DNA of 64,000 bases from Flavobacterium sp. SCGC AAA160-P02 (lineage in GTDB: Bacteria > Bacteroidota > Bacteroidia > Flavobacteriales > Flavobacteriaceae): NCBI GenBank assembly GCA_000383355.1, contig KB911090.1:75502-139501 (forward strand), written 5' to 3'. Positions 345 to 16,185 of the stretch are shown in pieces. The position numbers and the translations under genes were made by a program. Under the pieces are notes generated by a model that saw nothing but the letters and a program-made list of their open reading frames with translations, was not told the origin of the DNA and ran no database searches. Each line of letters starts with the position of its first letter. The stretch's first letter is position 1.

Positions 345-1892
345 TTAGTATCCTGGATTCTGAACTAAATTAGGATTTGATAACAATGCTGTTAATGGAA
401 TTGGGAATAAGTTTTTATTCGCATCTCCAACAGCTGCTGGGTCTTTAAACTCCCAGTCTTTTGTAAATTGACCAAATCTAATTAAATCGTTACGTCTAAA
501 AAATTCAACATACAATTCTCTACCTCTTTCGTCTATCATATCATCTAAACTTAGAGATCCTAAAGGAGTTGCATCCCTTAAAACTCTTAATTCATTTACT
601 TCAGCCAAAGCTTCACCGGCATTTCCTGCTCTTAACATTGCTTCTGCTCTCATTAAGTGAGCATCTGCATATCTGAAAATAGTTTCGTGAGCTCTAAAAG
701 AATCTTCATTTGTACCATTAAAAGGGTGGTACTTAATAACTCTAATGGCTTGTGTTTCATTACTATTAGTTAAACTAAAGTCTCTTGAATACACCAAAGG
801 ATTTCCTGCTCTATCTGTTAAAGCTTGTCCAGTACCAGAGTATTGCTGACCTACTAAGAAGCCATACCCCATACCATAGTTGTCTGTATTATTTGCATTT
901 GAAGCGTCTGGTACCCATCCTCTTCTTTCTTCTTGTCCAGAACCTACATAGTTTTCATTGGCATCTCCTTCAAATAAATCATAAAATTCAGCTAACGTAG
1001 AAAAACCATTCCAACCTCCACCTTGGTTAGGCGTTACCATGTTGTAATGCATACCATTCCAGATTCTGTTTCCAATTCCTATGTTTCCAAACAAAACGGT
1101 TTCTGTATTTACAGTTGGTTCAAATAATTTGAAATATCCATCCTGTAAAGCAAATCCACTAGCTTCAACAGCATTTACAGCATTAATTACTTCTTGGTAA
1201 TTAGGTGCTGAACCTGTATAACGTTCGCTGTTTAAAATTAATTTTGCTTTTAGAAAGTTAGCCGCTGCTTTAGATGCGCCGTTTGTTTCCATACTTGGAC
1301 CAGTATTAGGCAATCCTCCAATAGCTTCGTTTAAGTCATTTAAAATATAAGCATAGGCTTCAGATGGTGACAGTACAACTGGTGTTGCAACTGGATCATC
1401 TGTAGCTTCTCTAAATGGATTTTGACCCCACATATCTAACACAAAGAACATGCTGAAAGCTCTTAAAAACTTTGCTTCAGCTACTTGTTGCTGAGATGAA
1501 TTACTCAGAGGATCAATAATTTGACTTGCTTTTAACACCTTAGAGTTTAACTGGTTCCAGGTACTTAATAAGAAACCATGATCTACTTTCCATGTATGAT
1601 TGTGAAGTGAACGCCACAATCCGTTATCTCCCCAGTCACTTCCTCTTGTAGGAATTACTTGCTCGTCTGTAGTTACTTCGTTCAAAGCAAAGAAATTTGC
1701 CTGATCTCCTAACATACCCCATGTTTCACCATACAGTCCGTTTAGCGATTCTTGTGAATCAGCTACCCCTGTAAAAGAAACATCTTGTATCACTGAATCC
1801 GTAGCCTCAAGTTCTAAATCTGAACAAGAATAAAGTGCTGTCATGGAAATAAGTGATAGTAAAACTATTTTTAAATTAAATTGTTTTTTCAT
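345..1892 (-). CDS. SusD/RagB family nutrient-uptake outer membrane lipoprotein
   Basis: A 515-residue SusD-like surface lipoprotein that caps the SusC channel and captures oligosaccharide (or another nutrient) before TonB-dependent import. The signal MKKQFNLKIVLLSLISMTALYSC ends in a lipobox-like cysteine followed by acidic residues (SDLELEATD), as expected for surface-exported Bacteroidota lipoproteins. The family's TPR-like helices are visible, for example AEAKFLRAFSMFFVLDMWG near residue 140 and RADAHLMRAEAMLRAGNAG-like text near 410. The C-terminus carries the usual ELYVEFFRRNDLIRFG and NLFPIPLTAL motifs. It starts 12 bases after susC stops, so the two are co-transcribed. The sequence does not show the substrate. 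Confidence 0.96.
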   Translation of the reverse strand: MKKQFNLKIVLLSLISMTALYSCSDLELEATDSVIQDVSFTGVADSQESLNGLYGETWGMLGDQANFFALNEVTTDEQVIPTRGSDWGDNGLWRSLHNHTWKVDHGFLLSTWNQLNSKVLKASQIIDPLSNSSQQQVAEAKFLRAFSMFFVLDMWGQNPFREATDDPVATPVVLSPSEAYAYILNDLNEAIGGLPNTGPSMETNGASKAAANFLKAKLILNSERYTGSAPNYQEVINAVNAVEASGFALQDGYFKLFEPTVNTETVLFGNIGIGNRIWNGMHYNMVTPNQGGGWNGFSTLAEFYDLFEGDANENYVGSGQEERRGWVPDASNANNTDNYGMGYGFLVGQQYSGTGQALTDRAGNPLVYSRDFSLTNSNETQAIRVIKYHPFNGTNEDSFRAHETIFRYADAHLMRAEAMLRAGNAGEALAEVNELRVLRDATPLGSLSLDDMIDERGRELYVEFFRRNDLIRFGQFTKDWEFKDPAAVGDANKNLFPIPLTALLSNPNLVQNPGY

Positions 1893-1904: not shown

Positions 1905-4900
1905 TTAAAATTTTGCGTTAATTCCAAAAGTAATTGTCGTTGGATTTGGATATGCTCCATAATCCATTCCAATAGAAGGTAAATTACCTCCTGTAGCAGA
2001 ACTAACTTCTGGATCTAATCCTGAATAATCTGTAGATAACCATAGGTTTTGCCCTGTTACAGAGAATACCATAGATTTAAAAACCCCTTCTCCAGATAGT
2101 GGCATGTCATAAGCTAAAGATAAATTTTGCAATCTCACAAAATCTCCTTTTTCTAAAAACCTAGTAGACGCAGCAGCAGATGCTCCTAATGCTTCTCCAC
2201 TTGTTAACGTTTCTGGAAGTACATTTCTAGTTGTATTAAACGCTCCTGCAGTAAAGAATGCATTTGCTGTGTTGTTGTATATGTAGTGACCAAACTGCCC
2301 ATTAAAATAAGCAGACATTGTAAATCTCTTATAACTTAAATTGGTAGATAAACCTCCTGTTAAATTAGGTAAAGCACTTTTTCCAACAAAACTTTTTTCT
2401 TCACTTATAATTGGTTGTCCAGCTCCATCATATCCATCAAACTCTAATAAATAATAAGAAAATAATGAATGTCCTTCTTGCAATCTCATTGCAAAAGCAC
2501 CAGACAATCCTGGTCCGTTTACATTAGCAAAGTCATATTGTCCAGAAAGAGATTCTACCATATTATCATTGTAAGCAATGTTAAAGTTTGCAGACCAGTT
2601 AAAATCTTCTGTTTGAACTAAATCATACCCTAAAGAAAATTCAACCCCTTGATTTACAATTTTTGAATCTGGTAAGTTTCTAAATTTTTGAGATAAAATA
2701 GCCGGTTGAGCTTCATCAACTAAAAATAATAAATCTTGTGTTTCTTTTCTGTATACATCTATACTTCCAGAAAGTCTGTCATTATTAAAACCGAAATCTA
2801 ATCCTGTCGCATATTGTAATGTTGATTCCCATTTAAGGTCATTACCACCAAATGAAACAATACCATTACCGTTACTTAGATCTATCTCCCCGTTATTTTG
2901 AGGATTTAATCCATTCCAACGAGATCTGTTTACATAATTACCATAACCTACTCCTTCTTGGTTTCCAGTTAAACCTGCACTTACACGTAGTTTTAACGTA
3001 GACATATTACTATCACTCATAAAGTCTTCTTCGTTTAACTTCCATGCGAAAGCTCCTGAAGGAAAATAACCATATCTGTTTGCTTCTGGAAAAGCAGAAG
3101 AACCATCAGCTCTTACTGTAGCAGTAAACAAATACTTGTCTGCTATTGTATAATTTACTCTTCCAAAAAATGATTGTAACTCTGTTGTATTATCATAAGA
3201 ATCAACAGCTAAAGATCTTACTCCAGATTTTGATGTTCTTGGTGTAAAGCTAGAAGTTGTAAAATCTAATCCATCAAACCCTCTTACGTATACTCCATCA
3301 ATATTTGGTGCGTAACCAAATTGTTGATACTGACCTGATATTTCGCCAGCAATACCTGTAACAATATTTTTAAGGCTAGATCCCATTAAATCTAAATCTT
3401 TTGTTGAGAAACCCCAAGCTCCAGAATACATTCCTGAACTACGGAAACTTTGGTAAGAAAAACCTCCTAAAACATCTAATCTAGAATTTTTATATTCTTT
3501 ATTGTATGATATTGTAGCTTCTAATAATTCGTTTTGTACTTCTAACACATTATAAGCTCCTCTACCATTACCTGGTATTCCATCTTCTAACCCTAACACA
3601 TCAGCTGAAGTAACAGAAAAGTTGTCAGAATCTGATTGATCTAGACCAACAGATACTTTCGCTTTTAAATTAGAAGTTAAATCATATTCAAGAGATACAT
3701 TGGCTAAGTATCTATTTGTATTTGTTGTTCCTTTTGTATATGCTAATAAGTTAGCAGGGTTTACCAAAGTTCCTCCATCGTAATCTGGGTCATTAGGCCA
3801 AGTAGGATTTGCAGAAAAAGCTGCTCCTAAAATATCTCCTTTGTAACCAGCAGTTCCTCCAGTAGGTGCTAAATTATCATCTACTCTAGATACAGATCCT
3901 TGAAAAGAAAGTGTTAACTTATCATCTAAAAATCGTTGATTAAGATTTAATCTTGCTGTAAGTCTTTCTAAATTTGAATTCTCAACAATACCTGTTTGAT
4001 TTCCAAAACCTAAAGTAGCTATATAAGATCCTTTGTCATGAGACTTAGAATAACTTAAATTTTGATTGTGTGATTGAGCTGTTCTAAAAACAACATCTTG
4101 CCAATCTGTTGAAGATCCAACATTACTTACTGCATCTACAGCCAATCCTAATCTCCTTCTTTCTGAAATAAATTGACTAGCATTTAGTAGATTATAAGTT
4201 TGTCTTGCCTTAGAAGAACTAACATTTGCTTGGTAATTAAACTCCCCTTTTTTAGATCTTCCTTGCTTAGTAGTAACAATAACAACCCCATTTGCTCCTC
4301 TAGAACCATAAATGGCTGTAGCTGATGCATCTTTCAAAATACTAATACTTTCAATATCGTTAGGATTTAAAAAGCTAAGTGGGTTTTTTGCTGGATTTCC
4401 TCCAAGACCAATAACATTTGCTCCTGCAGTTGTTGCACCTCCTGATAAAGGAATCCCATCTACTACAAATAATGGATTGTTATTAGATCTAACAGAGTTA
4501 GAACCTCTAATACGAATATTAACTCCTGCTCCAGGTGCTCCACTTGTGCTTGAGATTTGAACCCCAGCAGTTTTACCCTGTATTAATTGTTCTGGCGAAG
4601 AAATAACACCCTTGTTAAAGTCTTCTGATTTTACAGAAGTAACAGATCCTGTTGCATCTTTAACTGTAGTTGAACCGTACCCAATAACTACTATTTCGTC
4701 TAGCTCTGTAGCGTCTTGCGTCATAGTAACATTTATTACAGCTTCAGAACCTACAGTTCTTTGTTCTGTTTTGTACCCAAGATAGTTGTAAACTAACACA
4801 TCGCCTTGATTAGCGCTAATTGTGTAGTTTCCATCAAAATCTGTTTGTACCCCCGTTGTTGTACCTTTTATGGTAATACTAACGCCTGGTAAACTACCAT

Positions 4901-5000
4901 CGGCATCAGAAACAACTCCTTTAACTGATTGTCCATAGGAAACACTACCTATAAGTAGCATTAAAATCAGTAAAGGTTTTTTAAGTAAACTATTTTTCAT
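1905..5000 (-). CDS. SusC/RagA family TonB-linked outer membrane protein
   Basis: A 1031-residue TonB-dependent transporter of the SusC type. A signal peptide (about 1-23, ending SVSYGQ) precedes a carboxypeptidase-regulatory-like domain (about 24-105, with GVSITIKGTTTGVQTDFDGNY). Next come the SusC signature ELDEIVVIGYGS, a plug domain (about 115-245, with SISILKDASATAIYGSRGA) and a long beta-barrel ending in an aromatic-rich terminal strand (ITFGINAKF). It imports the ligand captured by the SusD protein, powered by TonB-ExbBD. It is the first gene of the susC-susD-FG-GAP unit, behind a 327-base regulatory region that holds a LacI-type palindrome. The linked 3-keto-glycoside genes suggest a glycoside substrate, by inference only. 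Confidence 0.97.
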   Translation of the reverse strand: MKNSLLKKPLLILMLLIGSVSYGQSVKGVVSDADGSLPGVSITIKGTTTGVQTDFDGNYTISANQGDVLVYNYLGYKTEQRTVGSEAVINVTMTQDATELDEIVVIGYGSTTVKDATGSVTSVKSEDFNKGVISSPEQLIQGKTAGVQISSTSGAPGAGVNIRIRGSNSVRSNNNPLFVVDGIPLSGGATTAGANVIGLGGNPAKNPLSFLNPNDIESISILKDASATAIYGSRGANGVVIVTTKQGRSKKGEFNYQANVSSSKARQTYNLLNASQFISERRRLGLAVDAVSNVGSSTDWQDVVFRTAQSHNQNLSYSKSHDKGSYIATLGFGNQTGIVENSNLERLTARLNLNQRFLDDKLTLSFQGSVSRVDDNLAPTGGTAGYKGDILGAAFSANPTWPNDPDYDGGTLVNPANLLAYTKGTTNTNRYLANVSLEYDLTSNLKAKVSVGLDQSDSDNFSVTSADVLGLEDGIPGNGRGAYNVLEVQNELLEATISYNKEYKNSRLDVLGGFSYQSFRSSGMYSGAWGFSTKDLDLMGSSLKNIVTGIAGEISGQYQQFGYAPNIDGVYVRGFDGLDFTTSSFTPRTSKSGVRSLAVDSYDNTTELQSFFGRVNYTIADKYLFTATVRADGSSAFPEANRYGYFPSGAFAWKLNEEDFMSDSNMSTLKLRVSAGLTGNQEGVGYGNYVNRSRWNGLNPQNNGEIDLSNGNGIVSFGGNDLKWESTLQYATGLDFGFNNDRLSGSIDVYRKETQDLLFLVDEAQPAILSQKFRNLPDSKIVNQGVEFSLGYDLVQTEDFNWSANFNIAYNDNMVESLSGQYDFANVNGPGLSGAFAMRLQEGHSLFSYYLLEFDGYDGAGQPIISEEKSFVGKSALPNLTGGLSTNLSYKRFTMSAYFNGQFGHYIYNNTANAFFTAGAFNTTRNVLPETLTSGEALGASAAASTRFLEKGDFVRLQNLSLAYDMPLSGEGVFKSMVFSVTGQNLWLSTDYSGLDPEVSSATGGNLPSIGMDYGAYPNPTTITFGINAKF

Positions 5001-5327: not shown

Positions 5328-6071
5328 TTAAAGCTCTTTAATCCTGATATTTCTGAAGGAAACTTTGTCGCTATGGTCTTGAAGACCTATGTATCCAGTA
5401 GGATATTTACCAAATCCTTCCCAATCTTTAAACTTAGAATTGGCAACCATTTTTTTCCATTCAATTCCATGAAGAGGAAAAGATATTGTTGTTTTTTCAT
5501 TCATAGTAACACGTGCAATATTGGTCGTATGATTCACCTCTAAAACACATTGATTCCATTCTCCAGCCGGATTTATATGGTCTGCTGGATATCCAATCAT
5601 ATCATATAAAGAACCTGCCTTATGAATTCCGTTCCCCACAAATGAATCTGGATGCTTTGCATTATCTAAAACCTGTATCTCTGGACCTGTCATATAGGCT
5701 TCAGAAAACTTTTCACTTTCATGTACGCCCCAAAAAATACCACTATTCCCTGCTTCTGATATTTTCCACTCTAGTGATAAAATAAAATTAGTATAGGTTT
5801 TCTTTGAAATAATATTTTTCCCTCCTTCTTTACCTGGAGTAAATACCATCGCATCATCTTCAATAGTCCATTCTGGGTAAATGTCTTCAGAAAGATAACC
5901 TCGCCAATTATCTAGCGAACTTCCATCAAATAAAATTGTCCAATCACTTTCATTGATTGTTTCACCTGGTGATGAAACTTTCTCTGTTTCGGCTTTTTCT
6001 TGCGATTTTTTTTCTGTTTGGTTACATGCCACTAAAAAGCATAAACACACTAATAAAGTTATTCTTGCCAT
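5328..6071 (-). CDS. DUF1080 (3-keto-disaccharide hydrolase domain) lipoprotein
   Basis: A 247-residue DUF1080 protein. The signal MARITLLVCLCFLVAC ends in a lipobox cysteine, followed by a charged linker and the domain from about residue 42. It opens with the family pattern WTILFDGSSLDNWRG and continues with NSGIFWGV, PEIQVLDNAKHPD, HINPAGEWNQCVLEV and a final GYIGLQDHSDKVSFRNIRIKEL-type strand. DUF1080 enzymes have a concanavalin-like jelly-roll fold, and characterised members act on 3-keto-glycosides by elimination or hydration rather than ordinary hydrolysis. It is the last gene of a minus-strand operon, 10 bases after the isomerase-like gene. A second DUF1080 copy lies at 14147-14956. 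The fold is certain; the exact step (lyase or hydratase) is not visible. Confidence 0.93.
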   Translation of the reverse strand: MARITLLVCLCFLVACNQTEKKSQEKAETEKVSSPGETINESDWTILFDGSSLDNWRGYLSEDIYPEWTIEDDAMVFTPGKEGGKNIISKKTYTNFILSLEWKISEAGNSGIFWGVHESEKFSEAYMTGPEIQVLDNAKHPDSFVGNGIHKAGSLYDMIGYPADHINPAGEWNQCVLEVNHTTNIARVTMNEKTTISFPLHGIEWKKMVANSKFKDWEGFGKYPTGYIGLQDHSDKVSFRNIRIKEL

Positions 6072-6081
6072 ATTTATAATA

Positions 6082-7140
6082 TTAAATTCCTATGATTCTT
6101 TTTAATTGATCTTCATTTTTATCTGCTTCGCTTCCAGCAAAATCATCAAACTTTTTGCTAGTTGTTTCAATGAGATGATTTTTAATGAAAGTTACGCCTT
6201 CTTTGGCTCCTTGTGCTGGACTTTTTATCACACACTCCCATTCTAATACAGCCCATACATCACAACCATATTCTGTTAGTTTTGAAAAAACTTGCTTAAA
6301 ATCTACTTGGCCATCTCCTGGAGAACGATACCTTCCTGCTCTATTTTTCCAATCATTATAACCTCCAAAAGTTCCTTTTTTACCAGTGGAATGAAATTCT
6401 GCATCTTTTACATGAAAAGCTTTTATAAATTGATGATAGTGATCTATGTATTTTAAATAATCTAATTGTTGTAATACAAAATGTGATGGATCATATAAAA
6501 TATTAACTCTCTTATGATTTCCTGTTGCTGCTAAAAAACGTTCAAAAGTATCTCCATCATGAATGTCTTCAACAGGATGTACTTCATAACAAACATCTAC
6601 GCCTTGATCATCAAAGGTGTTTAAAATAGGCAGCCATCTTGATGCCAATTCTTTAAATCCTGTTTCCACAAGTCCTTTAGGTTGTTGCGGCCAAGGATGA
6701 ACCATAGGCCACAATAAAGAACCTGAAAAAGTAGCATGTGTTTTTAAACCTAAACGCCTACTTACAACGGCAGCTTTTTTCATTTGATCTATGGCCCACA
6801 AGGTTCTTTCTTTTGGTTTTCCTTGTAATTCTTTAGGTGCAAAAACATCAAACATTAGGTCGTGAGCTGAATGAACTGCCACTAGTTGTCCTTGAATATG
6901 AGTTGATAATTCTGTAATTTCCAAGCCAAAAGAATTTATTTTTCCTTTAAACTCATCACAGTATGTTTGACTTTCAGAAGCAATATCTAAATCAATAATA
7001 CTTTTGTCTAATGTAGGTATTTGAACACCAATATACCCAAGGTTACTTGCCCATTTACACAGACCTTCTAAAGAGTTAAAAGGTGCTTTTTCATCCATAA
7101 ATTGTGCTAAAAAAACAGCAGGTCCTTTAATTGTTTTCAT
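6082..7140 (-). CDS. Sugar phosphate isomerase/epimerase-like TIM-barrel protein
   Basis: A 352-residue xylose-isomerase-like TIM barrel without a signal peptide, so cytoplasmic. Family features are the N-terminal substrate-loop region (GYIGVQIPTLD), the metal-site strands CYEVHPVEDIHDGDTFERFL and VNILYDPSHFVLQQLDYLKYI, KAFHVKDAEFH and a terminal AVLEWECVIKSP. The conserved E, D, H and E residues at these strands would bind a divalent metal. Related proteins are usually linked to Gfo/Idh/MocA oxidoreductases and handle keto- or inositol-type sugars by isomerisation or epimerisation. It lies between the MocA-like and DUF1080 genes in one operon with gaps of 23 and 10 bases. The specific reaction is not assignable. 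Confidence 0.9.
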   Translation of the reverse strand: MKTIKGPAVFLAQFMDEKAPFNSLEGLCKWASNLGYIGVQIPTLDKSIIDLDIASESQTYCDEFKGKINSFGLEITELSTHIQGQLVAVHSAHDLMFDVFAPKELQGKPKERTLWAIDQMKKAAVVSRRLGLKTHATFSGSLLWPMVHPWPQQPKGLVETGFKELASRWLPILNTFDDQGVDVCYEVHPVEDIHDGDTFERFLAATGNHKRVNILYDPSHFVLQQLDYLKYIDHYHQFIKAFHVKDAEFHSTGKKGTFGGYNDWKNRAGRYRSPGDGQVDFKQVFSKLTEYGCDVWAVLEWECVIKSPAQGAKEGVTFIKNHLIETTSKKFDDFAGSEADKNEDQLKRIIGI

Positions 7141-7163
7141 ATTTTTTATTCAATAATTAAAAA

Positions 7164-8318
7164 TTACAATGCATAGTTTTCATCAATAGCCACCCATACA
7201 TTTCCGTTTTTATGTGATGTAATAGCTTTTTCTATAAAACTCATACCTCTTACACCATCTATAATGGTTGGAAATTCGCCTTTATTATAAGGTTCATTAC
7301 AAATTGCTCTGGCTACTCCTTTATATATGTTACCCATAGCATCAAAAATTCCTTCTGGATGTCCTGGCGGTAATTTTGTTCCATCTAAAGATAGCTCACT
7401 ATTGTATACATGCCCTGGTTTTAAAACTTGTAATGGTTTTCCGTCTTGCATTAAATACAAGTAATTTGGGTTTTCTTGTTCCCATTTGAGCCCTGCTTTA
7501 TCTCCATACACCTTTACTACAAAACTATTTTCTTCACCTGTGGCAATCTGACTTGCACAAATAACTCCTTTGACGTTTTTAGAGCATCGGAGCAAAATAG
7601 TACCGTCTACGTCCATTGGATTATCATCATAAACATGATTTAAATCTGCTAATATGTTTTCAATTTTAACTCCTGAAACATACTCTAACATATCAAAAGC
7701 ATGGGTTCCAATATCTCCAATACAACAACTTGCCCCTGATTTTTCAGGATTTAAACGCCAGGTTGTTTTTCGTTTTTCTACATCATGTATAATAGGATTT
7801 ATCCATCCTTGGTAATATTGTGCATCTACTTTTTGAACGTTCCCTATTTCTCCATTTAAGATCATTTCGCGCATTTGGCGAACCATAGGATATCCTGTAT
7901 AAGTATAGGTGACTGCAAATACCGTTTTCTTTTCTTGAAGAATTGAATAAAGCTCTTGTGCTTCTTGGTAAGTAGTAGTTAATGGTTTTTCACAAATAAC
8001 ATGAAATCCGTTTTCTAACAGTTTTTTTGCCATAGAAAAATGCAAGAAATTAGGCGTTAAAATAGAAACTACTTGCATTCTTTGCTCTTTTGGCAACTGT
8101 AATTCTTGGGCTACTAAAGTTTCAAAATCTATATAAACTCTGTCTGTTGGGAGACCAATTTTTGTAGCAAACTCAATATTTTCATCCCAATTGGGGTTAA
8201 AAACTCCTCCAACAATTTGATATCTATCAAACATTGAGGAAGCAATACGGTGCAACACGCCAATTAAAGAATTGCCACCACCACCTAAAATTCCTAATCT
8301 TATTTTAGAACTACTCAT
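7164..8318 (-). CDS. Gfo/Idh/MocA family NAD(P)-dependent oxidoreductase
   Basis: A 384-residue dehydrogenase. The Rossmann fold starts at residue 6 with RLGILGGGGNSLIG. The family's cofactor/catalytic EKP triplet is at 110-112 (HVICEKPLTT), and the C-terminal alpha/beta substrate domain carries GDIGTHAFDMLEYVSG with the likely catalytic histidine. It would be soluble and cytoplasmic, interconverting a sugar hydroxyl and a keto group. In a 3-keto-sugar pathway, members of this family reduce the released 3-keto sugar to the normal sugar or set up the reverse oxidation. It is 6 bases from the permease gene upstream and 23 from the isomerase-like gene downstream, so co-transcribed. Substrate and direction are inferred from context. 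Confidence 0.93.
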   Translation of the reverse strand: MSSSKIRLGILGGGGNSLIGVLHRIASSMFDRYQIVGGVFNPNWDENIEFATKIGLPTDRVYIDFETLVAQELQLPKEQRMQVVSILTPNFLHFSMAKKLLENGFHVICEKPLTTTYQEAQELYSILQEKKTVFAVTYTYTGYPMVRQMREMILNGEIGNVQKVDAQYYQGWINPIIHDVEKRKTTWRLNPEKSGASCCIGDIGTHAFDMLEYVSGVKIENILADLNHVYDDNPMDVDGTILLRCSKNVKGVICASQIATGEENSFVVKVYGDKAGLKWEQENPNYLYLMQDGKPLQVLKPGHVYNSELSLDGTKLPPGHPEGIFDAMGNIYKGVARAICNEPYNKGEFPTIIDGVRGMSFIEKAITSHKNGNVWVAIDENYAL

Positions 8319-8324
8319 GTGTTA

Positions 8325-9554
8325 CTATCCTTTATATTCTATTTTTTCATCTTTAAACAATACGGCAAAAATTACCATTACTACCACTGCAAATACTGCT
8401 GGAAATATCCATATATCTTGCCAAGCGTGAGAGCCATCTGAAAGTAAATTCTTGTCTACAACTTGTCCTGCAATCCAAAAACCAACCAACATTCCAACAC
8501 CATAAGTTGCCAGTGTTATTAAACCTTGTGCAGCACTTTTAACTTTTTCTCCTGCTTTAGAATCGGTGTAAATTTGACCCGATACAAAAAAGAAGTCATA
8601 GCAAATTCCATGCAAGGCTATTCCAGTAATAATCATGAAAAATAAATCGCCATTATTACCATAAGCAAAAAGTACGTATCTAATTGCCCATGCTAACATA
8701 CCAAAAAGAATGGTTTTTTTGAAGCCAAACTTTTTAAAGAAAAAAGGCAATAATAACATAAATGCTACTTCGGATATTTGACCTAATGAGGCCCAAGCAG
8801 TAGAGTTTTCTACCTGATATTCTGTTAAAAAAGGACTAATATTCTGATAGTAAAAAGCTAATGGAATGCAAATTAAAACTGAAGAGATAAAAAAGACTAA
8901 AAAATTTCTGTCTTTTAATAATTTTAAGGCATCTAAGCCTAAAATATCTTTAATGGTTACATTTTCATCTTTACTTATAGATGGTGGTGTTTTAGGTAAA
9001 GTAAAACTAAAAACCCCTAACACTACAGATGCAATAGCAACCATTGTAAAGGTATTTGACAACATGCCTTGACCAATATTTTCTATTGAATCCCATTTGA
9101 ATAGGAAGCTAATAGCTAAACCAGCTAAAATCCAACCCACTGTACCCCAAACTCTAACCATCGGAAATTGCTTTGCTGGATCGCTCATTTGATGAAACGA
9201 TACTGAATTTACCAATGCCAATGTTGGCATATAGGCAATCATATATCCTAAAACGTAAGGATAAAAAACAGAAAATTCTGTAGATTGAGCCATTAAATAC
9301 ATTAAAACCGCGCCAACAAGATGTAGTACTCCTAGTATTTTTTCAGCATTAAAATATCTATCTGCTATTAAGCCAATAATAAAAGGTGCAATGATAGCTC
9401 CCCAAGATTGTGTAGAATATGCTATAGCTGTTTCTCCCCCTGATGCACCTAGGTTACTTCCTAAAAAAGTACCCATAGTCACAAACCATCCTCCCCAAAT
9501 AAAAAATTCGAGAAACATCATTAATGACAATTGAAATTGAATTGATTTTTTCAT
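8325..9554 (-). CDS. MFS permease of the nucleoside:H+ symporter (NupG/XapB-like) family
   Basis: A 409-residue polytopic membrane protein with about 12 predicted helices. The N-terminus (QLSLMMFLEFFIWGGWFVTMGTF) and the loop IGLIADRYFNAEKIL are typical of the NHS family of the major facilitator superfamily. Related Bacteroidota proteins are commonly annotated as nucleoside permeases but recur next to Gfo/Idh/MocA, TIM-barrel and DUF1080 genes. There a role in moving a (keto-)monosaccharide across the inner membrane is more plausible than nucleoside uptake. It sits inside the catabolic operon, 6 bases before the oxidoreductase gene and 44 bases after the lipoprotein TIM-barrel gene. The sugar role is inference. 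Confidence 0.88.
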   Translation of the reverse strand: MKKSIQFQLSLMMFLEFFIWGGWFVTMGTFLGSNLGASGGETAIAYSTQSWGAIIAPFIIGLIADRYFNAEKILGVLHLVGAVLMYLMAQSTEFSVFYPYVLGYMIAYMPTLALVNSVSFHQMSDPAKQFPMVRVWGTVGWILAGLAISFLFKWDSIENIGQGMLSNTFTMVAIASVVLGVFSFTLPKTPPSISKDENVTIKDILGLDALKLLKDRNFLVFFISSVLICIPLAFYYQNISPFLTEYQVENSTAWASLGQISEVAFMLLLPFFFKKFGFKKTILFGMLAWAIRYVLFAYGNNGDLFFMIITGIALHGICYDFFFVSGQIYTDSKAGEKVKSAAQGLITLATYGVGMLVGFWIAGQVVDKNLLSDGSHAWQDIWIFPAVFAVVVMVIFAVLFKDEKIEYKG

Positions 9555-9598
9555 ACTACTAAAGGTTAATTTGTGATATTATCTAGTTGATTTTAAAA

Positions 9599-10582
9599 TT
9601 ACTTGATTTTTTTTGCTGCTATCAATAACAAATCTTTGGTGGCTTTAATTCCAGCAGGTTCATCTAATCTATCTCCCTCATATTCTACACCTATAAAACC
9701 AGTATATCCAGCATCTTTTACAATTTGTAACATTTTTACAAAATCTATGGTGGTTTCGTTTCCATCAGCATCAAAATCATACGATTTTGCACTCACTGCT
9801 TTCGCTGCAGGCATCATCATTTCAGTTCCTTTATATTTATCTGGATACACTTGAGCACAATCTCCCCATTTTTCATTCATGTTTTTTCTTTTTGTACACC
9901 AATTTCCAAAATCTGGAAGTGTTCCACAATTTTCCATGTTTACATCATTAATAGCAGCCATTAACTTATCAGGATCTGAAGACAACCATCCATGATTTTC
10001 ACATAAGACATTGATGTTTTTTGTTGCGGCGTATTCAGATAGTTTTCTCAATCCATCCACTACAGATGTTTTCCATACCTCCGGGTCGTTGGTTCCAAAA
10101 GTATTGACACGAATAGAATGACATCCTAATATTGCTGCAGCATCTACCCATCGTTTATGATTTTCAACAGCCTGATCTCGCTTAGACTCATCTGGGTCAG
10201 CTAAATCACCTTCATCATCTACCATAATTAAAACATTTTGTATTTTTTCTCTTTCACTTAGGGTTTTTAGCGAATCTATAACAACATCAAATCCTAACTT
10301 TTCAACTTCAAACTTATACAATTGGCTCACATACTCTAAGCCTTCAAAACCCATTTCTTTTGCCTGAGAAGCAAAATGAAACGGTGATTTTTTTTCAGTT
10401 CTTACATATTGGTTTAATGACCACTGCGCTAAAGAAAGTTTAAAAAACGGATCTCCTTTAGTTACTGATGCTGTGGCAGAAGCAACTTCTTTATTCACCT
10501 CTTTTTTGCAACTAGAGATTGTTGTAGATAAAAAAATTATTGAAATAAAAAATAGTGCTTTTGATATAATAGTTGAATTCAT
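9599..10582 (-). CDS. Exported TIM-barrel (sugar phosphate isomerase/epimerase-like) lipoprotein
   Basis: A 327-residue protein with an N-terminal lipoprotein signal (ending STTISSC, then KKE) followed by an AP-endonuclease-2/xylose-isomerase-like TIM barrel from about residue 45. Recognisable strands are FKLSLAQWSLNQYV, GFEGLEYVSQLYKFE, INVLCENHGWLSSDPDKL, NCGTLPDFGNWC and TGFIGVEYEG, which carry the acidic and histidine metal ligands. The lipobox places it in the periplasm or outer membrane, unlike the cytoplasmic homologue at 6082-7140, so one pathway appears to have an isomerase-like enzyme on each side of the inner membrane. It is the first gene of the minus-strand operon. Its reaction is unknown; family membership is clear. 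Confidence 0.88.
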   Translation of the reverse strand: MNSTIISKALFFISIIFLSTTISSCKKEVNKEVASATASVTKGDPFFKLSLAQWSLNQYVRTEKKSPFHFASQAKEMGFEGLEYVSQLYKFEVEKLGFDVVIDSLKTLSEREKIQNVLIMVDDEGDLADPDESKRDQAVENHKRWVDAAAILGCHSIRVNTFGTNDPEVWKTSVVDGLRKLSEYAATKNINVLCENHGWLSSDPDKLMAAINDVNMENCGTLPDFGNWCTKRKNMNEKWGDCAQVYPDKYKGTEMMMPAAKAVSAKSYDFDADGNETTIDFVKMLQIVKDAGYTGFIGVEYEGDRLDEPAGIKATKDLLLIAAKKIK

Positions 10583-10676
10583 TTTAATCTGATTTATATT
10601 ATTCTGTAAATTGAAAGTATAACATAGCGCTTAAAATTATGTGTACAATTGTTCAGTGAAAAATTTTAAACAAAAA

Positions 10677-11696
10677 TTAAGTAGCTCTAATCGCTCTTTT
10701 TCGATAAGCCACAGGAGTACATTTTTCTTGTTTTTTAAACATGGTTGCAAAATACTGACTTGTAGAAAAGCCGCATAAATAAGCTACATCAGAAATATTC
10801 ATTTCAGGTTGTTCTAGCAATACTTTTTTAGACATTTCTACGCGTTTAAGCATCAGATATTTCATGGGCGTTAAATTGGTTAATTGCCTACAATGAAATG
10901 TAAATCTAGTAAGACCAACTCCAGAAGATTTGGCCATCTTTTCTACGGTCCAATTCTCAGATAAATTAACATCTAATTCTTTTAAAAATTGGTGAACACT
11001 TCTAGAACTATTCATTAATTTTTCATCTAACTGAACCTCTTCAACTGCTAACAAATCTAAAAGAAATAGTAATAAATCATTCACTAATAATCGTATTTTT
11101 GAAGCATTACTTCCTTCATTATCAGAATCTACCGCTTTTCCAATTCTCTGAAAACAATCTAAAATACGCTTGTCTGCTTTCCAACAAAATTTTTCATTCT
11201 GTCGTAAGATATTCGTTAGTTTTTCAAGATCTTTGGGCGCCAATATAATCCAATCTGGCCATAACCAATTTTGATGAGGCCTTCTCACATCTAAGTCTAA
11301 AATAATCCAATAAAACTTTCCCATTCCAATAACTGGTCCTCCAACTTTATGAACTTCCCAAGGTCTTGTAATAGTTAAGTTATTGGGTAGTAATTCTAAT
11401 GCTTGATTTTCTTGTGAGTAGGGCATAGAACCAGATTCTAAAAAATGAATCTCAATTCCCTCATTTCTATGCCAATCTAAACCCCAGTCTTGTGGTTCAT
11501 TAGCATCCCAATACCCAATGCTATTAAGGCCTATCGTATCTTCTGTTAATCGCTTCCCAGGATAGGTGTGCCTGGCTAAAGCATTGAATTTTATTTTATT
11601 TCTACTCACCGCGTCAACTAGAGGGATGCAGGTATCTGCATGATACTCTATTCCATTCTCTTTAAAAGGCGATATATTTTGTATATTTATTTTCAC
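10677..11696 (-). CDS. AraC family transcriptional regulator with N-terminal cupin-like domain
   Basis: An AraC-type activator with a C-terminal double helix-turn-helix: VEKMAKSSGVGLTRFTFHCR, then ISDVAYLCGFSTSQYFATMFKK, ending in PVAYRKR. The N-terminal part (about 1-170) looks like a sugar-sensing cupin domain (GLDWHRNEGIEIHFLESG). No ATG lies in the first hundred codons. I chose the GTG at 11696 (start VKINIQN), because the other candidate, a TTG at 11726, would overlap the palindrome and predicted promoter in the divergent spacer. The gene lies between the two operons, on the strand of the isomerase operon and divergent from the GMC operon, so it is the natural regulator of both. The family is certain; the start is uncertain by 30 bases. 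Confidence 0.9.
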   Translation of the reverse strand: MKINIQNISPFKENGIEYHADTCIPLVDAVSRNKIKFNALARHTYPGKRLTEDTIGLNSIGYWDANEPQDWGLDWHRNEGIEIHFLESGSMPYSQENQALELLPNNLTITRPWEVHKVGGPVIGMGKFYWIILDLDVRRPHQNWLWPDWIILAPKDLEKLTNILRQNEKFCWKADKRILDCFQRIGKAVDSDNEGSNASKIRLLVNDLLLFLLDLLAVEEVQLDEKLMNSSRSVHQFLKELDVNLSENWTVEKMAKSSGVGLTRFTFHCRQLTNLTPMKYLMLKRVEMSKKVLLEQPEMNISDVAYLCGFSTSQYFATMFKKQEKCTPVAYRKRAIRAT

Positions 11697-11723
11697 TGAA
11701 AAATATTGAACATAATAAAAGCG

Positions 11724-11739
11724 CAAATTAATTAATTTG
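11724..11739. promoter_or_regulatory. Palindrome in the AraC/GMC divergent spacer (operator or back-to-back -7 elements)
   Basis: CAAATTAATTAATTTG is a perfect 16-base palindrome midway between the divergent genes. Each arm reads TTAATTTG towards its own gene, one mismatch from the Bacteroidota -7 element TAnnTTTG. The flanks extend it to GCGCAAATTAA on one side and GCCAAATTAA on the other, matching the two repeats upstream of susC. It may be a bidirectional promoter, a regulator site, or both. No clear -33 element accompanies it. Confidence 0.4.
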
Positions 11740-11811
11740 GCTTAGAATAATGTAAATTTACGTGTATAAAATTCAGAATTTTACAATAAACAGTCTCTAA
11801 AATTATAATGA

Positions 11812-13530
11812 ATGGACAAAAACAAGGTAAAAACAGAAGATAATCAATTTGATGCTATTGTAGTTGGCACAGGAATTTCTGGAGGTTGGGCAGCAAAAGA
11901 ACTTTGTGAACAAGGATTTAAAACATTGGTGCTTGAGCGAGGTAGAATGGTAAAACATATTGATGATTATCCAACTGCAAATCTAGATCCTTGGGATCTT
12001 CCAAATGGAGGAAAAACTACACAGGAAATAATTAATCGTAAACCAAAACAACATAGAACAGGGTACACTACTCATCCTGCACGAGAACACTTTTTTGTTG
12101 ATGACGTAAAACATCCTTACAACGAAGTAAGGAGATTTGATTGGATGCGCGGCTACCATGTTGGTGGACGTTCTTTAATGTGGGGGAGACAAAGTTACCG
12201 GTTAAGTGATGTTGATTTCGAAGCTAATAAAAAAGATGGCGTTGCAGTAGATTGGCCAGTTCGCTACAAAGAAATAGAACCTTGGTATGATAAGGTTGAA
12301 GAATACATTGGTGTTAGTGGGCAGAATTTAGGATTGAAACATTTCCCAGATCAAAAGCTTCTAAAACCCATGGAATTAAATTGTGTAGAAGAACATTTAC
12401 AAAGTAAAATATCAGAAAACTTTGATGATGAAAGAGTTTTAACAATAGGAAGAACAGCTCACATTACAGAAGGCACTAAAGAAGGACTAGGCAGGAGTAC
12501 TTGTCAATACAGAAGTAGATGTATGAGAGGTTGTCCGTTTGGCGCTTATTTTAGCAGTAACTCTTCTACATTGCCTGCTGCAGACGCTACAGGAAACATG
12601 ACTTTAAGACCCAATTCTATTGTACATGAAGTTATGTACGATGATGCTACAAAACAGGCTACTGGTGTTCGTATTATTGATGCAGAAACTAAAGAAACTC
12701 ATATATATAATGCAAAAGTAGTTTTTTTATGTGCTTCCTCAATAGCTTCTGCTTCTATTCTCTTGCAATCAAAATCTGAAAGATTTCCAAACGGATTAGG
12801 AAATGACAGTGGAGAATTAGGGCATAATATTATGGATCATCATTTTCATGTTGGTGCCACTGCAACAGCAGAAGGCTATGATGATAAGTATGTAAAAGGA
12901 AGAAGACCTAATGGTATTTATATTCCACGATTTAGAAATCTAGGAGGAAACACTACTATGAAAAGTTTTAAAAGAGGCTACGGGTATCAAGGTGGTGCTA
13001 GTAGAGAAGATGCTTCAGAATTGGTCGCAGAATTAAAATATGGACCAAAATTAGCGGAAGCTATTTTAAAACCAGGAGAATGGAACGTAAATTTATTAGC
13101 TTTTGGAGAAACTTTACCAGATCATAACAATAAGATGTATTTAGATGAAAGTAAAAAAGATGAATGGGGCTTGCCTACCATAACTTTTGATGCAGCTTTT
13201 GGAGAAAATGAATTTGAAATGAGAAAAGACATGCAAGAGCAAGCTAAAAAAATGTTAGAAGCCGCAGGTTATAAAAATGTTCAAGGATACGATAATGGCG
13301 GTAAAGCCATGGGATTAGGAATTCACGAAATGGGGACTGCAAGAATGGGAAAAGATCCAAAAACATCTGTTTTAAACAAACACAATCAAATACACGCATG
13401 TAAAAATGTATATGTTACTGATGGCGCATTTATGACTTCTTCAGGCTGTCAAAACCCATCATTAACCTATATGGCTTTTACTGCCAGAGCTGCCAATCAT
13501 GCTGCTAAAAATTTTAAAAAGAACGCTTAA
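11812..13530 (+). CDS. GMC family FAD-dependent oxidoreductase, probable glycoside/sugar dehydrogenase large subunit
   Basis: A 572-residue GMC oxidoreductase. The ADP-binding fold DAIVVGTGISGGWAAKEL is at 14-31, with ERG closing the second strand at 42-44 and HVGGRSLMWGRQSYRL at 116-131. HEMGTARMG and the final DGAFMTSSGCQNPSLT form the FAD/catalytic end with the usual His and Asn. Cysteines 231, 237 and 241 (TCQYRSRCMRGCPFGA) match the cysteine patch that binds an iron-sulfur cluster in FAD-dependent glucose dehydrogenases. There is no signal peptide; such subunits are exported by hitch-hiking with the Tat signal of the small subunit, encoded 11 bases downstream. With two DUF1080 genes nearby, glycoside C3 oxidation is the best guess. 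The cytochrome subunit often paired with it is absent here. Confidence 0.92.
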   Translation: MDKNKVKTEDNQFDAIVVGTGISGGWAAKELCEQGFKTLVLERGRMVKHIDDYPTANLDPWDLPNGGKTTQEIINRKPKQHRTGYTTHPAREHFFVDDVKHPYNEVRRFDWMRGYHVGGRSLMWGRQSYRLSDVDFEANKKDGVAVDWPVRYKEIEPWYDKVEEYIGVSGQNLGLKHFPDQKLLKPMELNCVEEHLQSKISENFDDERVLTIGRTAHITEGTKEGLGRSTCQYRSRCMRGCPFGAYFSSNSSTLPAADATGNMTLRPNSIVHEVMYDDATKQATGVRIIDAETKETHIYNAKVVFLCASSIASASILLQSKSERFPNGLGNDSGELGHNIMDHHFHVGATATAEGYDDKYVKGRRPNGIYIPRFRNLGGNTTMKSFKRGYGYQGGASREDASELVAELKYGPKLAEAILKPGEWNVNLLAFGETLPDHNNKMYLDESKKDEWGLPTITFDAAFGENEFEMRKDMQEQAKKMLEAAGYKNVQGYDNGGKAMGLGIHEMGTARMGKDPKTSVLNKHNQIHACKNVYVTDGAFMTSSGCQNPSLTYMAFTARAANHAAKNFKKNA

Positions 13531-13541
13531 TAAACCAACAT

Positions 13542-14141
13542 ATGAAACGTAGAGACGCATTAAAAAATATAGGATTTGCTGCTGGTTTTGCAATTATAAC
13601 ACCAAGCATTTTTAGTATGTTGCAAGGGTGTACTGGTGATTCTGTTACATGGATTCCAAACTATTTAACTTCGGATGAAAAAATATTTGTAACAAATTTA
13701 GCGGATATTATGATTCCAAAAACTGCTACTACTCCTTCGGCAACTGAAGTAAATGTTCCACAATTTATAGACAAATATATTGATGAAGTTTTAGATACCA
13801 ATGATCAAGAAATAACCAGAGCCGCGTTTGTAAAAGTAATTGCTATTCTAAGACCAGATGCAACAGCTGATTTAGGAGATACAACAACAGAGCAATACAA
13901 AGCATTATTGGATGATCATATGCTTTTAAAAGGAGAAATTGATCAAGAAAGAACTGCAGATCCAGAAGCGATGTTGATGACAACTTCTGAATTTTTGAAT
14001 CAGTTAAAATGGATGATTATTAATGCCTATAAAAATTCTGAAGAAGTAGGTGAAAATATCTTAGCCTATGACCCTGTTCCTGCAGCTTACTATTGTGGTG
14101 ACTTACAAGAATTAACTGGAGGAAAATCTTATTCACTTTAA
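13542..14141 (+). CDS. Gluconate 2-dehydrogenase subunit 3 family protein (small subunit, Tat signal)
   Basis: A 199-residue partner of the GMC dehydrogenase. The N-terminus MKRRDALKNIGFAAGFAII is a twin-arginine signal, and the following SMLQGC could be a lipobox, so it may be a Tat-exported lipoprotein. The mature part has the family pattern LTSDEKIFVTNLADIMIPKT near 42-62, VPQFIDKYIDEVL near 70-85 and a helical C-terminal half. In characterised sugar dehydrogenases this subunit chaperones and exports the FAD subunit. It sits 11 bases after the GMC gene and 5 bases before the second DUF1080 gene, a tight three-gene operon. Confidence 0.92.
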   Translation: MKRRDALKNIGFAAGFAIITPSIFSMLQGCTGDSVTWIPNYLTSDEKIFVTNLADIMIPKTATTPSATEVNVPQFIDKYIDEVLDTNDQEITRAAFVKVIAILRPDATADLGDTTTEQYKALLDDHMLLKGEIDQERTADPEAMLMTTSEFLNQLKWMIINAYKNSEEVGENILAYDPVPAAYYCGDLQELTGGKSYSL

Positions 14142-14146
14142 CAACT

Positions 14147-14956
14147 ATGAAGTATTTTTTTTATAATATCGCTTTAATTATTCTTTTAAGCACTTGCTAT
14201 AGTTGTAAAAAAAGTAACTCAACTAAAATTAAAATTGACGTTAATTCATCTGAAAATTGGAAATCGCTATTTAATGGCGAAAACTTAGATGACTGGATCG
14301 TAAAAATTAATGGCTATAAATTACATGACAACCATCTTAATACCTTTAGAGCTGAAAATGGTATTCTAAAAGTATCCTACGACCAATACGATAATTTTAC
14401 AGACGAATTTGGCCATTTATTTTACAAAACTCCTTTTACTAATTATAGATTAAAATTACAATATAGATTTGTAGGAGATCAAGTTATTGGCGGTGAGCCT
14501 TGGGCAACAAAAAATAGTGGTATTATGATCCATAGCCAAGCTCCAGAAACCATGCTTTTAAAGCAAGGGTTTCCTTTGTCTTTAGAAGTTCAACTCTTAG
14601 GAGGAGTTACTCCTGGTGAGCCTCGCCCTTCTGGAAATTTATGCACTCCTGCTACTCACGTAGTTATGAATGGTGAGCAAATTACAGAACATTGTATCAT
14701 GGCAGAATGTAAAACGTATTACGGGGAAGAATGGATAGATGCAGAGGTTGTTGTAAACAACAATTCTATTACTCATTTTATTGATGGAAAACCTGTAATT
14801 ACCTATTCTATGCCAACTATTGGCGGAGATTTTCTAGACAGCACTTCAAAAGAAATTCAAGCAAAAGACGGTGAGTCACTTAAAGGTGGCTACATCTCAT
14901 TACAGAGTGAAAGCCACCCGATAGAGTTTAAGAATATTCAGATTTTAGAACTCTAA
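14147..14956 (+). CDS. DUF1080 (3-keto-disaccharide hydrolase domain) lipoprotein, second copy
   Basis: A 269-residue DUF1080 lipoprotein with a signal ending LLSTCYSC. The domain starts near residue 36 with the family opening WKSLFNGENLDDW, followed by FGHLFYKTPFTNYRLKLQYR, KNSGIMIHSQAP, SLEVQLLGG and a final GGYISLQSESHPIEFKNIQI. It differs clearly from the copy at 5328-6071, with an extra segment GNLCTPATHVVMNGEQI. It may therefore perform a different step (elimination versus hydration) or act on a different linkage. It closes the plus-strand operon with the GMC dehydrogenase and its subunit, placing a DUF1080 enzyme directly with the oxidase that would create its keto substrate. It ends 15 bases from the convergent azurin-like gene. 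Confidence 0.92.
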   Translation: MKYFFYNIALIILLSTCYSCKKSNSTKIKIDVNSSENWKSLFNGENLDDWIVKINGYKLHDNHLNTFRAENGILKVSYDQYDNFTDEFGHLFYKTPFTNYRLKLQYRFVGDQVIGGEPWATKNSGIMIHSQAPETMLLKQGFPLSLEVQLLGGVTPGEPRPSGNLCTPATHVVMNGEQITEHCIMAECKTYYGEEWIDAEVVVNNNSITHFIDGKPVITYSMPTIGGDFLDSTSKEIQAKDGESLKGGYISLQSESHPIEFKNIQILEL

Positions 14957-14971
14957 AATTAATTATATAAA

Positions 14972-15508
14972 TTATTCTACAATTAATTTTCCTTTCATCA
15001 TGGCATAGTGCCCAGGGAAACTACAAATATAATTATAGGTTCCTGCTTCAGGTGCTATAAACTCAATAACGGTAGTTTCTCCTCCTCCAATCATTTTTGT
15101 ATGTGCAATAACTTCTGTAGTTCCCTTAGGTATATAGTCATTGTCTCTTGCAGCAGCAGCCTTCACAGCAAATGCAGATGGTTTCACTCCATTTGTTAAG
15201 AAAACTACATTATGTCCCATAATTCTTTTATCTAATTTTCCTGTATGAGTTAGAGTTACTCTTACTTTCTGACCTGAACTCACATTAATTTTTCTAACAT
15301 CAAACCTCATTCCATCATTTGAAGTAATGGTAACATTGGCAACACCATTGGCATCTACAACAACAGTTTTGTCTTCGGTTTTATTTTTCTTTTTTGTGGT
15401 AACTACTTTAGTTTCCTTTGATGTTTTCTGAAGGGTATTTACCTGTTGATCTTTACCACAACTAACTAAAAACAATAATCCTAATGCTAGTGTTATTTTG
15501 TATTTCAT
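14972..15508 (-). CDS. Azurin-like blue copper lipoprotein
   Basis: A 178-residue cupredoxin with start ATG at 15508. An upstream in-frame start at 15559 would bury the signal peptide MKYKITLALGLLFLVSC, so I reject it. After a charged linker (about 20-55), the plastocyanin/azurin fold shows the first copper histidine in GHNVVFLTNG and the C-terminal CSFPGHYAMMKGKLIVE, supplying the Cys, His and Met ligands in azurin order. It would be a lipid-anchored periplasmic one-electron carrier. It is convergent with, and 15 bases from, the DUF1080/GMC operon, whose dehydrogenase has no cytochrome partner in the window. A role as its electron acceptor is possible but unproven. Confidence 0.92.
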   Translation of the reverse strand: MKYKITLALGLLFLVSCGKDQQVNTLQKTSKETKVVTTKKKNKTEDKTVVVDANGVANVTITSNDGMRFDVRKINVSSGQKVRVTLTHTGKLDKRIMGHNVVFLTNGVKPSAFAVKAAAARDNDYIPKGTTEVIAHTKMIGGGETTVIEFIAPEAGTYNYICSFPGHYAMMKGKLIVE

Positions 15509-15659: not shown

Positions 15660-16160
15660 ATGAAAAAAATAATTTTTTGTGCATTCGCTTTTGCACTTTT
15701 AGTTGGTTGTCAAGAAAACAACCAAACTTCAGTAAATTCTAAAATGAGTGTTTTTAAGAAAAATACTGAAACAACTAAAGCTTGGCTAGGTGCATTTATG
15801 CAAAATGATTCTACTGCCTTCTTTTCAGATAAATATATGAGTGAAGACTTTATTTGGTCTCCTCCAGCAGTAGGAATGGATTCTCTTCCCAAAGCTGAAT
15901 GGAAAAAAGCCTTTCGTGCTTTCATGGTAAACTATGATAATAAAAAACTTACGAACCCTCAATATTATGCTGCCCTAGGTGAGGATAATTTACCTGACGG
16001 AAATGTAAGAGCCTATGGAACATGGACTTCTAATTTTGCTGCTACTGGAAAAAAAAGCATGCTTAAGTGGTATGCTGTTTTACAATTTAATGAAGAAGGT
16101 AAATTAGCTCACTATATGGAATGGTATGACTCGGCAGATCTTTCAAAAGAATTTGACTAA
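15660..16160 (+). CDS. NTF2/SnoaL-like lipoprotein
   Basis: A 166-residue exported protein. The signal MKKIIFCAFAFALLVGC has a lipobox cysteine at 17. The mature domain reads like an NTF2/SnoaL-type cone: the helix TTKAWLGAFMQNDSTAFFSD, then SEDFIWSPPAVGMDSLPKAEW, a strand with NVRAYGTWTSNF, and MLKWYAVLQFNEEGKLAHYMEWYD. Such folds bind small ligands or act as isomerases and dehydratases, and sequence alone does not show which. It has its own predicted promoter and is followed 25 bases later by the unrecognised 211-residue lipoprotein, likely one transcript. Whether it belongs to the sugar locus is open. Confidence 0.72.
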   Translation: MKKIIFCAFAFALLVGCQENNQTSVNSKMSVFKKNTETTKAWLGAFMQNDSTAFFSDKYMSEDFIWSPPAVGMDSLPKAEWKKAFRAFMVNYDNKKLTNPQYYAALGEDNLPDGNVRAYGTWTSNFAATGKKSMLKWYAVLQFNEEGKLAHYMEWYDSADLSKEFD

Positions 16161-16185
16161 ATAATCAATTTTAAATTTTATAAAA

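Follow-up and report, generated by a model that had tools for sequence, protein, structure and literature searches.

A flavobacterial locus for a putative two-compartment, non-hydrolytic glycoside pathway with an azurin gene beside its dehydrogenase

The stretch of DNA analysed here (64,000 nucleotides of Flavobacterium sp. SCGC AAA160-P02, contig KB911090.1, positions 75,502 to 139,501; hereafter the window) is part of contig C1 of a draft genome of 2.54 Mb that is 89% complete. It carries two divergent operons, separated by an AraC-family regulator gene, whose products may together break down glycosides without hydrolysis (Table 1). Gene calls were based on the list of open reading frames of the window and a Pfam scan, and leader sequences were judged by eye. 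The layout drawn in the first-pass annotation, nine genes in divergent operons around one regulator, was confirmed, since all nine are intact open reading frames where it had placed them and their Pfam families agree with it. Its picture of a complete-looking locus from 5328 to 14956 holds for the pathway genes but leaves out an azurin gene at 14972-15508, which is convergent with the second DUF1080 gene and encodes a lipoprotein of the plastocyanin/azurin family. A lipobox-like cysteine is present in both DUF1080 proteins and in one of the two triosephosphate isomerase (TIM) barrels (9599-10582, hereafter the lipoprotein barrel); the other barrel (6082-7140), the Gfo/Idh/MocA enzyme and the GMC dehydrogenase have no leader signal. 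The earlier placement of the two barrels on opposite sides of the membrane fits these leaders.

The barrel without a leader matches the Protein Data Bank (PDB) entry 8RO4, titled '2-hydroxy-3-keto-glucal hydratase', with 512.6 bits (E 5.7e-153, residues 1-342), and is probably such a hydratase. Genes for a C3 glycoside dehydrogenase (GMC and PF13618) and for 3-keto-glycoside lyases (two PF06439 proteins, with the lipoprotein barrel as a further candidate) are predicted from family membership. The reductase candidate at 7164-8318 belongs to the Gfo/Idh/MocA family and reaches no equivalog cut-off, and it adjoins the hydratase gene in 19/19 loci with a relative of the lipoprotein barrel that show a hydratase. 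The 8RO4 match is decisive and, taken with the dehydrogenase subunits, the DUF1080 proteins and the Gfo/Idh/MocA enzyme, points to a scheme of oxidation, elimination, hydration and reduction. From gene content, homology and conservation we infer the reactions, where they take place, which way electrons flow and what the substrate is, as follows. In the periplasm, a GMC/subunit-3 flavoprotein exported by the twin-arginine route would oxidise a glycoside at C3 and pass the electrons to a membrane-anchored azurin, in place of a cytochrome c. In the same compartment a DUF1080 protein, the lipoprotein barrel or both would split the 3-keto-glycoside by beta-elimination, which would yield 2-hydroxy-3-keto-glucal (or 3-keto-glucose) together with an aglycone or the second sugar. 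The NupG-like permease would carry the glycal or keto-sugar into the cytoplasm, where the hydratase (6082-7140) would add water to the imported 2-hydroxy-3-keto-glucal and the Gfo/Idh/MocA enzyme would reduce the 3-keto sugar with NAD(P)H. For this two-compartment, non-hydrolytic pathway as a whole a probability of roughly 0.78 appears appropriate, and the azurin and lipoprotein-barrel steps are less certain than the whole. The first-pass proposal that the locus serves 3-keto-glycoside catabolism, with exported enzymes for oxidation and cleavage and the Gfo/Idh/MocA enzyme in the cytoplasm, thus appears supported, and the hydratase match strengthens it.

Table 1. Genes of the putative glycoside locus and its immediate neighbours (positions in the window).
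Feature and proposed role	Position	Strand	Evidence
SusD-like lipoprotein; optional uptake module	345..1892	-	PF07980 71.8 bits
SusC/RagA TonB-dependent receptor; optional uptake module	1905..5000	-	TIGR04056 666.8 bits
DUF1080 lipoprotein a; putative 3-keto-glycoside eliminase/hydratase type	5328..6071	-	PF06439 152.7 bits; PDB 3h3l, 4jqt, 8rr2, 8tda
Cytoplasmic TIM barrel; 2-hydroxy-3-keto-glucal hydratase by homology	6082..7140	-	PF01261; PDB 8ro4 512.6 bits
Gfo/Idh/MocA oxidoreductase; probable 3-keto-sugar reductase	7164..8318	-	Pfam; PDB 3v5n 303.7 bits
NupG-like major facilitator superfamily (MFS) permease (Nuc_H_symport); probable importer of cleaved keto-sugar or glycal	8325..9554	-	PF03825 407.7 bits
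Lipoprotein TIM barrel (4OVX family); likely lyase for 3-keto-glycosides in the periplasm	9599..10582	-	PF01261 95 bits; 4ovx 246 bits
AraC-family regulator; start codon uncertain	10677..11726	-	PF12833 58.6 bits
GMC dehydrogenase large subunit	11812..13530	+	PF00732/PF05199
Gluconate_2-dh3 subunit (subunit 3); twin-arginine signal and lipobox-like Cys	13542..14141	+	PF13618 77.8 bits; leader by eye
DUF1080 lipoprotein b, divergent subfamily	14147..14956	+	PF06439 116.3 bits
Lipoprotein cupredoxin of azurin type; candidate acceptor of electrons from the dehydrogenase; outside the first-pass locus	14972..15508	-	PF00127 66.6 bits

Other routes for the Gfo/Idh/MocA enzyme were rejected. Its best model, LevoglcsnDh of the levoglucosan route, gives 101.6 bits against a cut-off of 650, and the models for oxidation of the BT_2158/BT_2159 type give 37.3 and 24.7 bits against cut-offs of 750 and 650. 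In the GMC subunit, three cysteines align to the Cys-rich stretch of fructose dehydrogenase (8k6k alignment) and presumably hold a 3Fe-4S cluster.

Both DUF1080 proteins, the sole PF06439 members in the draft genome, lie above the family cut-off of 26.8 bits, and Pfam names the family '3-keto-disaccharide hydrolase'. The titles of solved relatives disagree on the chemical name, 8RR2 and 9FBE being '3-keto-glycoside eliminase/hydratase' and 8TDA and 8V31 '3-Keto-2-hydroxy-glucal-hydratase'. The model of DUF1080b is of medium quality, with a predicted local distance difference test (pLDDT) score of 72.9, and aligns to 9fbe with Z 12.4 (184 residues, 3.9 A; the best VIA row), barely above the beta-glucanase rows at about 11; its assignment therefore rests on Pfam. 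The number of DUF1080 genes per locus ranges from 0 to 3 among 30 loci with a hydratase and a NupG-like permease, loci cut by contig ends included. The slot after subunit 3 also varies, being filled by DUF1080b in the window and elsewhere by a TIM barrel or a Gfo/Idh/MocA protein with a twin-arginine-like leader.

A scan with the lipoprotein barrel returned 80 loci, 24 of which also carry GMC, permease and/or hydratase genes; L107 and L113 were left out of the 24 by hand as distant single matches (38% and 22%). As far as contigs reach, the recurring order is subunit 3 and GMC, then, divergent, an optional AraC gene, TIM barrel, permease, Gfo/Idh/MocA, hydratase and DUF1080, with exceptions such as L060 and L112, where the GMC gene lies elsewhere. 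With 24 loci that combine such genes, the arrangement is not due to chance. A plasmid search with the lipoprotein barrel gave 3 records, and one genomic match to it contains a single internal TAA (G174:C2:433813-434766). Two same-genus hydratase loci (L128, L129) show no GMC gene in the stretch examined; they hold AraC, another MFS, Gfo/Idh/MocA, DUF1080 and azurin-like genes and, by eye, a TonB-receptor-like protein of about 935 aa, and in L128 there is, in addition, a CxxCH-containing DUF7133 protein, a possible alternative to the dehydrogenase. The MFS-like proteins of L123 and L128 have no BLAST match to the NupG-like permease of the window. On a plasmid of Croceicoccus marinus (L122), Gfo/Idh/MocA, hydratase, subunit 3 and GMC genes stand beside a TIM barrel and a DUF6379 protein, and a GH3 gene. 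The pairing of a TIM barrel with DUF6379 is known from C-glycoside eliminases.

The closest structure to the lipoprotein barrel is 4OVX (48% identity, Z 40.6), whose title merely reads 'xylose isomerase domain protein'. With a profile built from 46 relatives, which also served for conservation, 12 PDB sequences were found, namely 4OVX, 8 C-glycoside deglycosidase chains headed by 7XRF and 7BVR (best E 3.5e-13), Art22 and 2 tagatose epimerases; the hydratase 8RO4 was not among these 12. Fold comparison of the model (pLDDT 89.7) could not choose between eliminase and epimerase, because after 4OVX, Art22 (Z 28.7) and 3wqo (26.6) the eliminases (25.5 to 23.9) are interleaved with epimerases (YcjR 6wn6, 24.4). 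In the eliminase site described in excerpts of PMC10628242, a metal ligand sits on strand 5 and is followed two residues later by the catalytic His, while strands 6, 7 and 8 contribute an Asp, a His and a Glu, respectively. The lipoprotein barrel has the AP_endonuc_2 TIM fold and these residues on strands 5, 6 and 8, where E195-N-H197, D224 and E300 are invariant in 46/46 relatives and aligned with 7xrf and 9m3b. It was left out of the eliminase (CGE/OGE) family because an invariant serine, S264, takes the column of the metal-binding His of strand 7. In five loci (L087, L092, L093, L131, L132) a relative adjoins a DUF1080 gene and no GMC, permease or hydratase match was found in the stretch examined; L087, L092 and L093 also have a distant Gfo/Idh/MocA match. 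This adjacency outside the rest of the pathway fits joint action of the two proteins on one putative substrate. On balance, a lyase is the favoured reading of the lipoprotein barrel, and it has somewhat better than even chances.

Type 1 copper is bound by a His, Cys, His and Met. The azurin carries all four (H99, C162, H167, M171), and these and the lipobox C17 are invariant in 21/21 azurins. Carriers were counted by hand in 28 distinct Bacteroidota loci, the window included, that hold GMC and subunit 3 with a hydratase or lipoprotein barrel and at least 1.8 kb of sequence beyond GMC; duplicates of contigs already counted (L134, L135, L136, L139, L140, L160, L161), loci truncated where a contig stops (L042, L053, L060, L064, L112, L143, L144) and the Pseudomonadota loci L122 and L123 were left out. 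An azurin is found in 21 of the 28, a cytochrome c in four (L124-L127), both in none and neither in three (L054, L055, L099) in the sequence examined, the 'neither' being weak for L055, where little sequence extends beyond the DUF1080 gene. The cytochrome of L124-L127, where GMC identity is 70-72%, is a lipoprotein with a single CxxCH, encoded directly 3' of subunit 3 on the same strand in L124 and L125; outside the set, a cytochrome c gene follows DUF1080 in L060. The window itself contains no CxxCH open reading frame of at least 100 aa within 6.5 kb of GMC, and neither carrier was found by BLAST and motif test within that distance in L122 and L123. Azurin adjacency is still seen where identity has fallen to 48% for azurin and 68% for GMC. 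Control GMC loci from the genus that lack both hydratase and lipoprotein barrel (L145-L159) have an azurin or cytochrome within 6.5 kb in 0/15 cases; L153, L156 and L157 have no subunit-3 match and L151 covers 1.85 kb beyond GMC. One genome (G026) holds both kinds, a GMC locus with azurin (L133) and one without (L145).

A GMC tree of 37 rows, whose deep forks are poorly resolved, requires 4 changes of the azurin label and 2 of the cytochrome label. Of 166 genomes of the genus, 17 have both hydratase and azurin, 6 only the hydratase, 11 only the azurin and 132 neither; Fisher values for these counts are descriptive only, because related genomes are not independent. Weak hits were dropped from these counts, for azurin below 50 bits (G011, G092 and second hits in G097 and G127) and for the lipoprotein barrel below 24 bits (G064, G086, G140). 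We read the azurin as a probable replacement for the cytochrome c of the dehydrogenase. A tentative further proposal, rather less likely than the pathway, is that in this clade a lipid-anchored azurin has taken over from a dedicated cytochrome c, the carrier being an exchangeable cassette, and that the lipoprotein barrel, with Ser in place of the metal-binding His, represents a new class of periplasmic 3-keto-glycoside lyase beside DUF1080. Among the papers listed by open-licence literature searches that included azurin, titles and abstract openings showed no link between azurin and a GMC glycoside dehydrogenase.

Several observations speak against these assignments. By fold, the isomerase Art22 and the tagatose-epimerase-like 3wqo outrank the eliminases, and the strand-7 metal ligand is missing from the lipoprotein barrel. 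The azurin gene is convergent and hence outside the operon, three of the 28 loci have no carrier, 11 genomes of the genus have an azurin and no hydratase, and in G118, G111 and G075 azurin and GMC genes are both present and far apart. The cytoplasmic hydratase would be redundant if DUF1080 itself hydrates the glycal, and the permease family is named for nucleosides. The three carrier-less loci, the opposite strand of the azurin gene and the 11 genomes with an azurin and no hydratase would also agree with an azurin that is just a frequent neighbour in the same pathway, as would the 15/15 GMC loci outside the pathway that have no carrier within 6.5 kb. In this reading the dehydrogenase would deliver its electrons to the quinone pool or to a cytochrome used in common, like relatives that have no adjacent carrier. 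Adjacency kept over such divergence, and a cytochrome c in the place of the azurin in four loci, twice directly after subunit 3, argue against it, and we consider it doubtful, at perhaps a third of the chances. A slightly stronger contender, still short of even odds, holds that DUF1080 alone cleaves and that the lipoprotein barrel acts instead as a YcjR-like epimerase of 3-keto-glycosides or as another hydratase, located in the periplasm. Epimerases interleaved with or above the eliminases by fold, an E-x-H motif common to the hydratase and the lost strand-7 His are in its favour; the profile hits, 8 of 12 being C-glycoside deglycosidase chains with only 2 tagatose epimerases and 8RO4 absent, tell against it.

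The uptake genes were weighed in the same way. A true polysaccharide locus of the SusCD type, with nearby GH13 enzymes releasing oligosaccharides and the keto route trimming them, is an unlikely reading. SusCD does adjoin the operons here, and in genome G010 a GH13-MFS-GH13 set, a PAP2 protein and three FG-GAP-like proteins lie beyond SusCD in the same order as in this genome. However, only 5/18 loci (the window included, at least 4 kb covered on that side) have SusC no more than 6 kb from the hydratase, and in one of these, L044, it is a different protein with only 38% identity; SusD stands beside the core in L039, L040, L045 and, diverged, in L044. The first-pass suggestion of a SusCD-fed locus was therefore not supported. 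As to the marks of a polysaccharide utilization locus, SusCD is present, the operons contain no hydrolase by Pfam, and two GH13 genes with an MFS transporter between them lie about 13 kb beyond the end of SusD, upstream of the window (G000:C1:58364-62814, or L003:863-5313). The earlier statement that no glycoside hydrolase is visible stands for the operons (Pfam) and the other open reading frames of the window (by eye). With two GH13 genes nearby, the suggested complete reliance on the keto route finds no support, a hydrolase-free locus alone being no proof of it. Catabolism of inositol or another polyol (by GMC, an IolE-like TIM barrel and Gfo/Idh/MocA) is a very improbable role for the locus. 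IolE and IolG models do match weakly (62.3 and 50.7 bits), far under their cut-offs of 290 and 355, whereas the hydratase and DUF1080 matches are specific.

Further features surround the locus. The two GH13 genes and their transporter, also present in G010, may form an alpha-glucoside set of their own on this contig. Directly after SusD (L003:6993-18225, G000:C1:64494-75726) lie genes for three large FG-GAP/ASPIC-UnbV-like proteins, one of which was scanned with Pfam and the other two of which are similar by eye, and for a PAP2-superfamily protein, which we take to be haloperoxidase-like. On the azurin side, positions 15660-16821 encode two small exported-looking proteins without a Pfam match at E 0.001, the first of which (166 aa) also adjoins the azurin in L039-L041, L043, L045 and L046. 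A Bacteroidota promoter pattern had 0 matches in the locus and 1 in the window against 6.9 expected.

Presumably, LacA of Caulobacter crescentus is a GMC protein, LacC belongs to the subunit 3 family and LacB is a cytochrome c. The families of LacA and LacC are both found in the window, the Caulobacter proteins being compared by description only. According to excerpts of PMC9007349, the Caulobacter lactose cluster comprises LacABC, a lactose 3-dehydrogenase that needs LacB, with two DUF1080 proteins (CCNA_01705/CCNA_01698), two 'sugar epimerases', a reductase and a transporter, and fitness data give the two DUF1080 genes distinct roles on lactose and raffinose (PMC9007349). In contrast, the window has no CxxCH open reading frame of 100 aa or longer for a LacB-type cytochrome c within 6.5 kb of its GMC gene and does have an azurin; it further differs in its divergent operons and, in this clade, SusCD. 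The division of labour that the first-pass annotation considered absent from simpler versions, with two DUF1080 copies and two barrels, therefore has a precedent. Its view of an exported and a cytoplasmic barrel as an unusual pair fared no better, since a plasmid of Pseudoalteromonas donghaensis (NZ_CP032091) holds, in one run, AraC, Gfo/Idh/MocA, a hydratase (64% identical), MFS, DUF1080, GMC, subunit 3 and a TIM barrel that, judged by eye, carries a signal peptide. Its MFS protein and second barrel have no BLAST match to those of the window, and no azurin or cytochrome was found within 6.5 kb of its GMC gene. With the Caulobacter and Pseudoalteromonas sets, the barrel pairing and the two DUF1080 copies belong to a known kind.

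In Bacteroides thetaiotaomicron, BT2156-BT2160 likewise contains a DUF1080 protein (BT2157) acting on 3-keto-glycosides, but C3 oxidation is attributed to the BT_2158/BT_2159 enzymes (NCBIfam 'glycoside 3-dehydrogenase' and 'disaccharide 3-dehydrogenase') and in the window to GMC. Work by Nasseri in Nature and Kastner in Angew. Chem., both of 2024, on BT2156-BT2160 and 'glycoside utilization loci' is said to define the pathway in Bacteroides. For Agrobacterium tumefaciens, we take GlycDH to be GMC-type and 8RO4 to be AtHYD. As excerpts of PMC10628242 describe, Rhizobium GlycDH with a TAT protein oxidises glucosides at C3, and in A. tumefaciens hydratase and reductase are encoded together in an oxidation, elimination, hydration and reduction scheme. 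The A. tumefaciens GlycDH operon (AtOGE, AtHYD, Gfo) resembles the window in dehydrogenase, hydratase and Gfo reductase; unlike the window with its two copies, DUF1080 is not among the genes named in those excerpts (PMC10628242). AtOGE was not seen under that name among the PDB hits of the lipoprotein barrel. The same four steps, with hydratase and reductase together, make up the levoglucosan pathway LgdA/B1/B2/C of Bacillus smithii, which has two 'sugar phosphate isomerase'-type enzymes; as described in excerpts of PMC7676230, its four enzymes include no GMC or DUF1080 protein, unlike the window.

The pathway itself is already published, and the locus is a flavobacterial variant of it, the azurin being its one unusual part. 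It indicates that flavobacteria carry a complete route for oxidising, cleaving, hydrating and reducing glycosides that is split across the inner membrane. The azurin neighbour gives a candidate answer to the question of which carrier serves GMC sugar dehydrogenases without a cytochrome subunit, and the 4OVX family, known here from a structure without an assigned reaction, gains a concrete candidate reaction.

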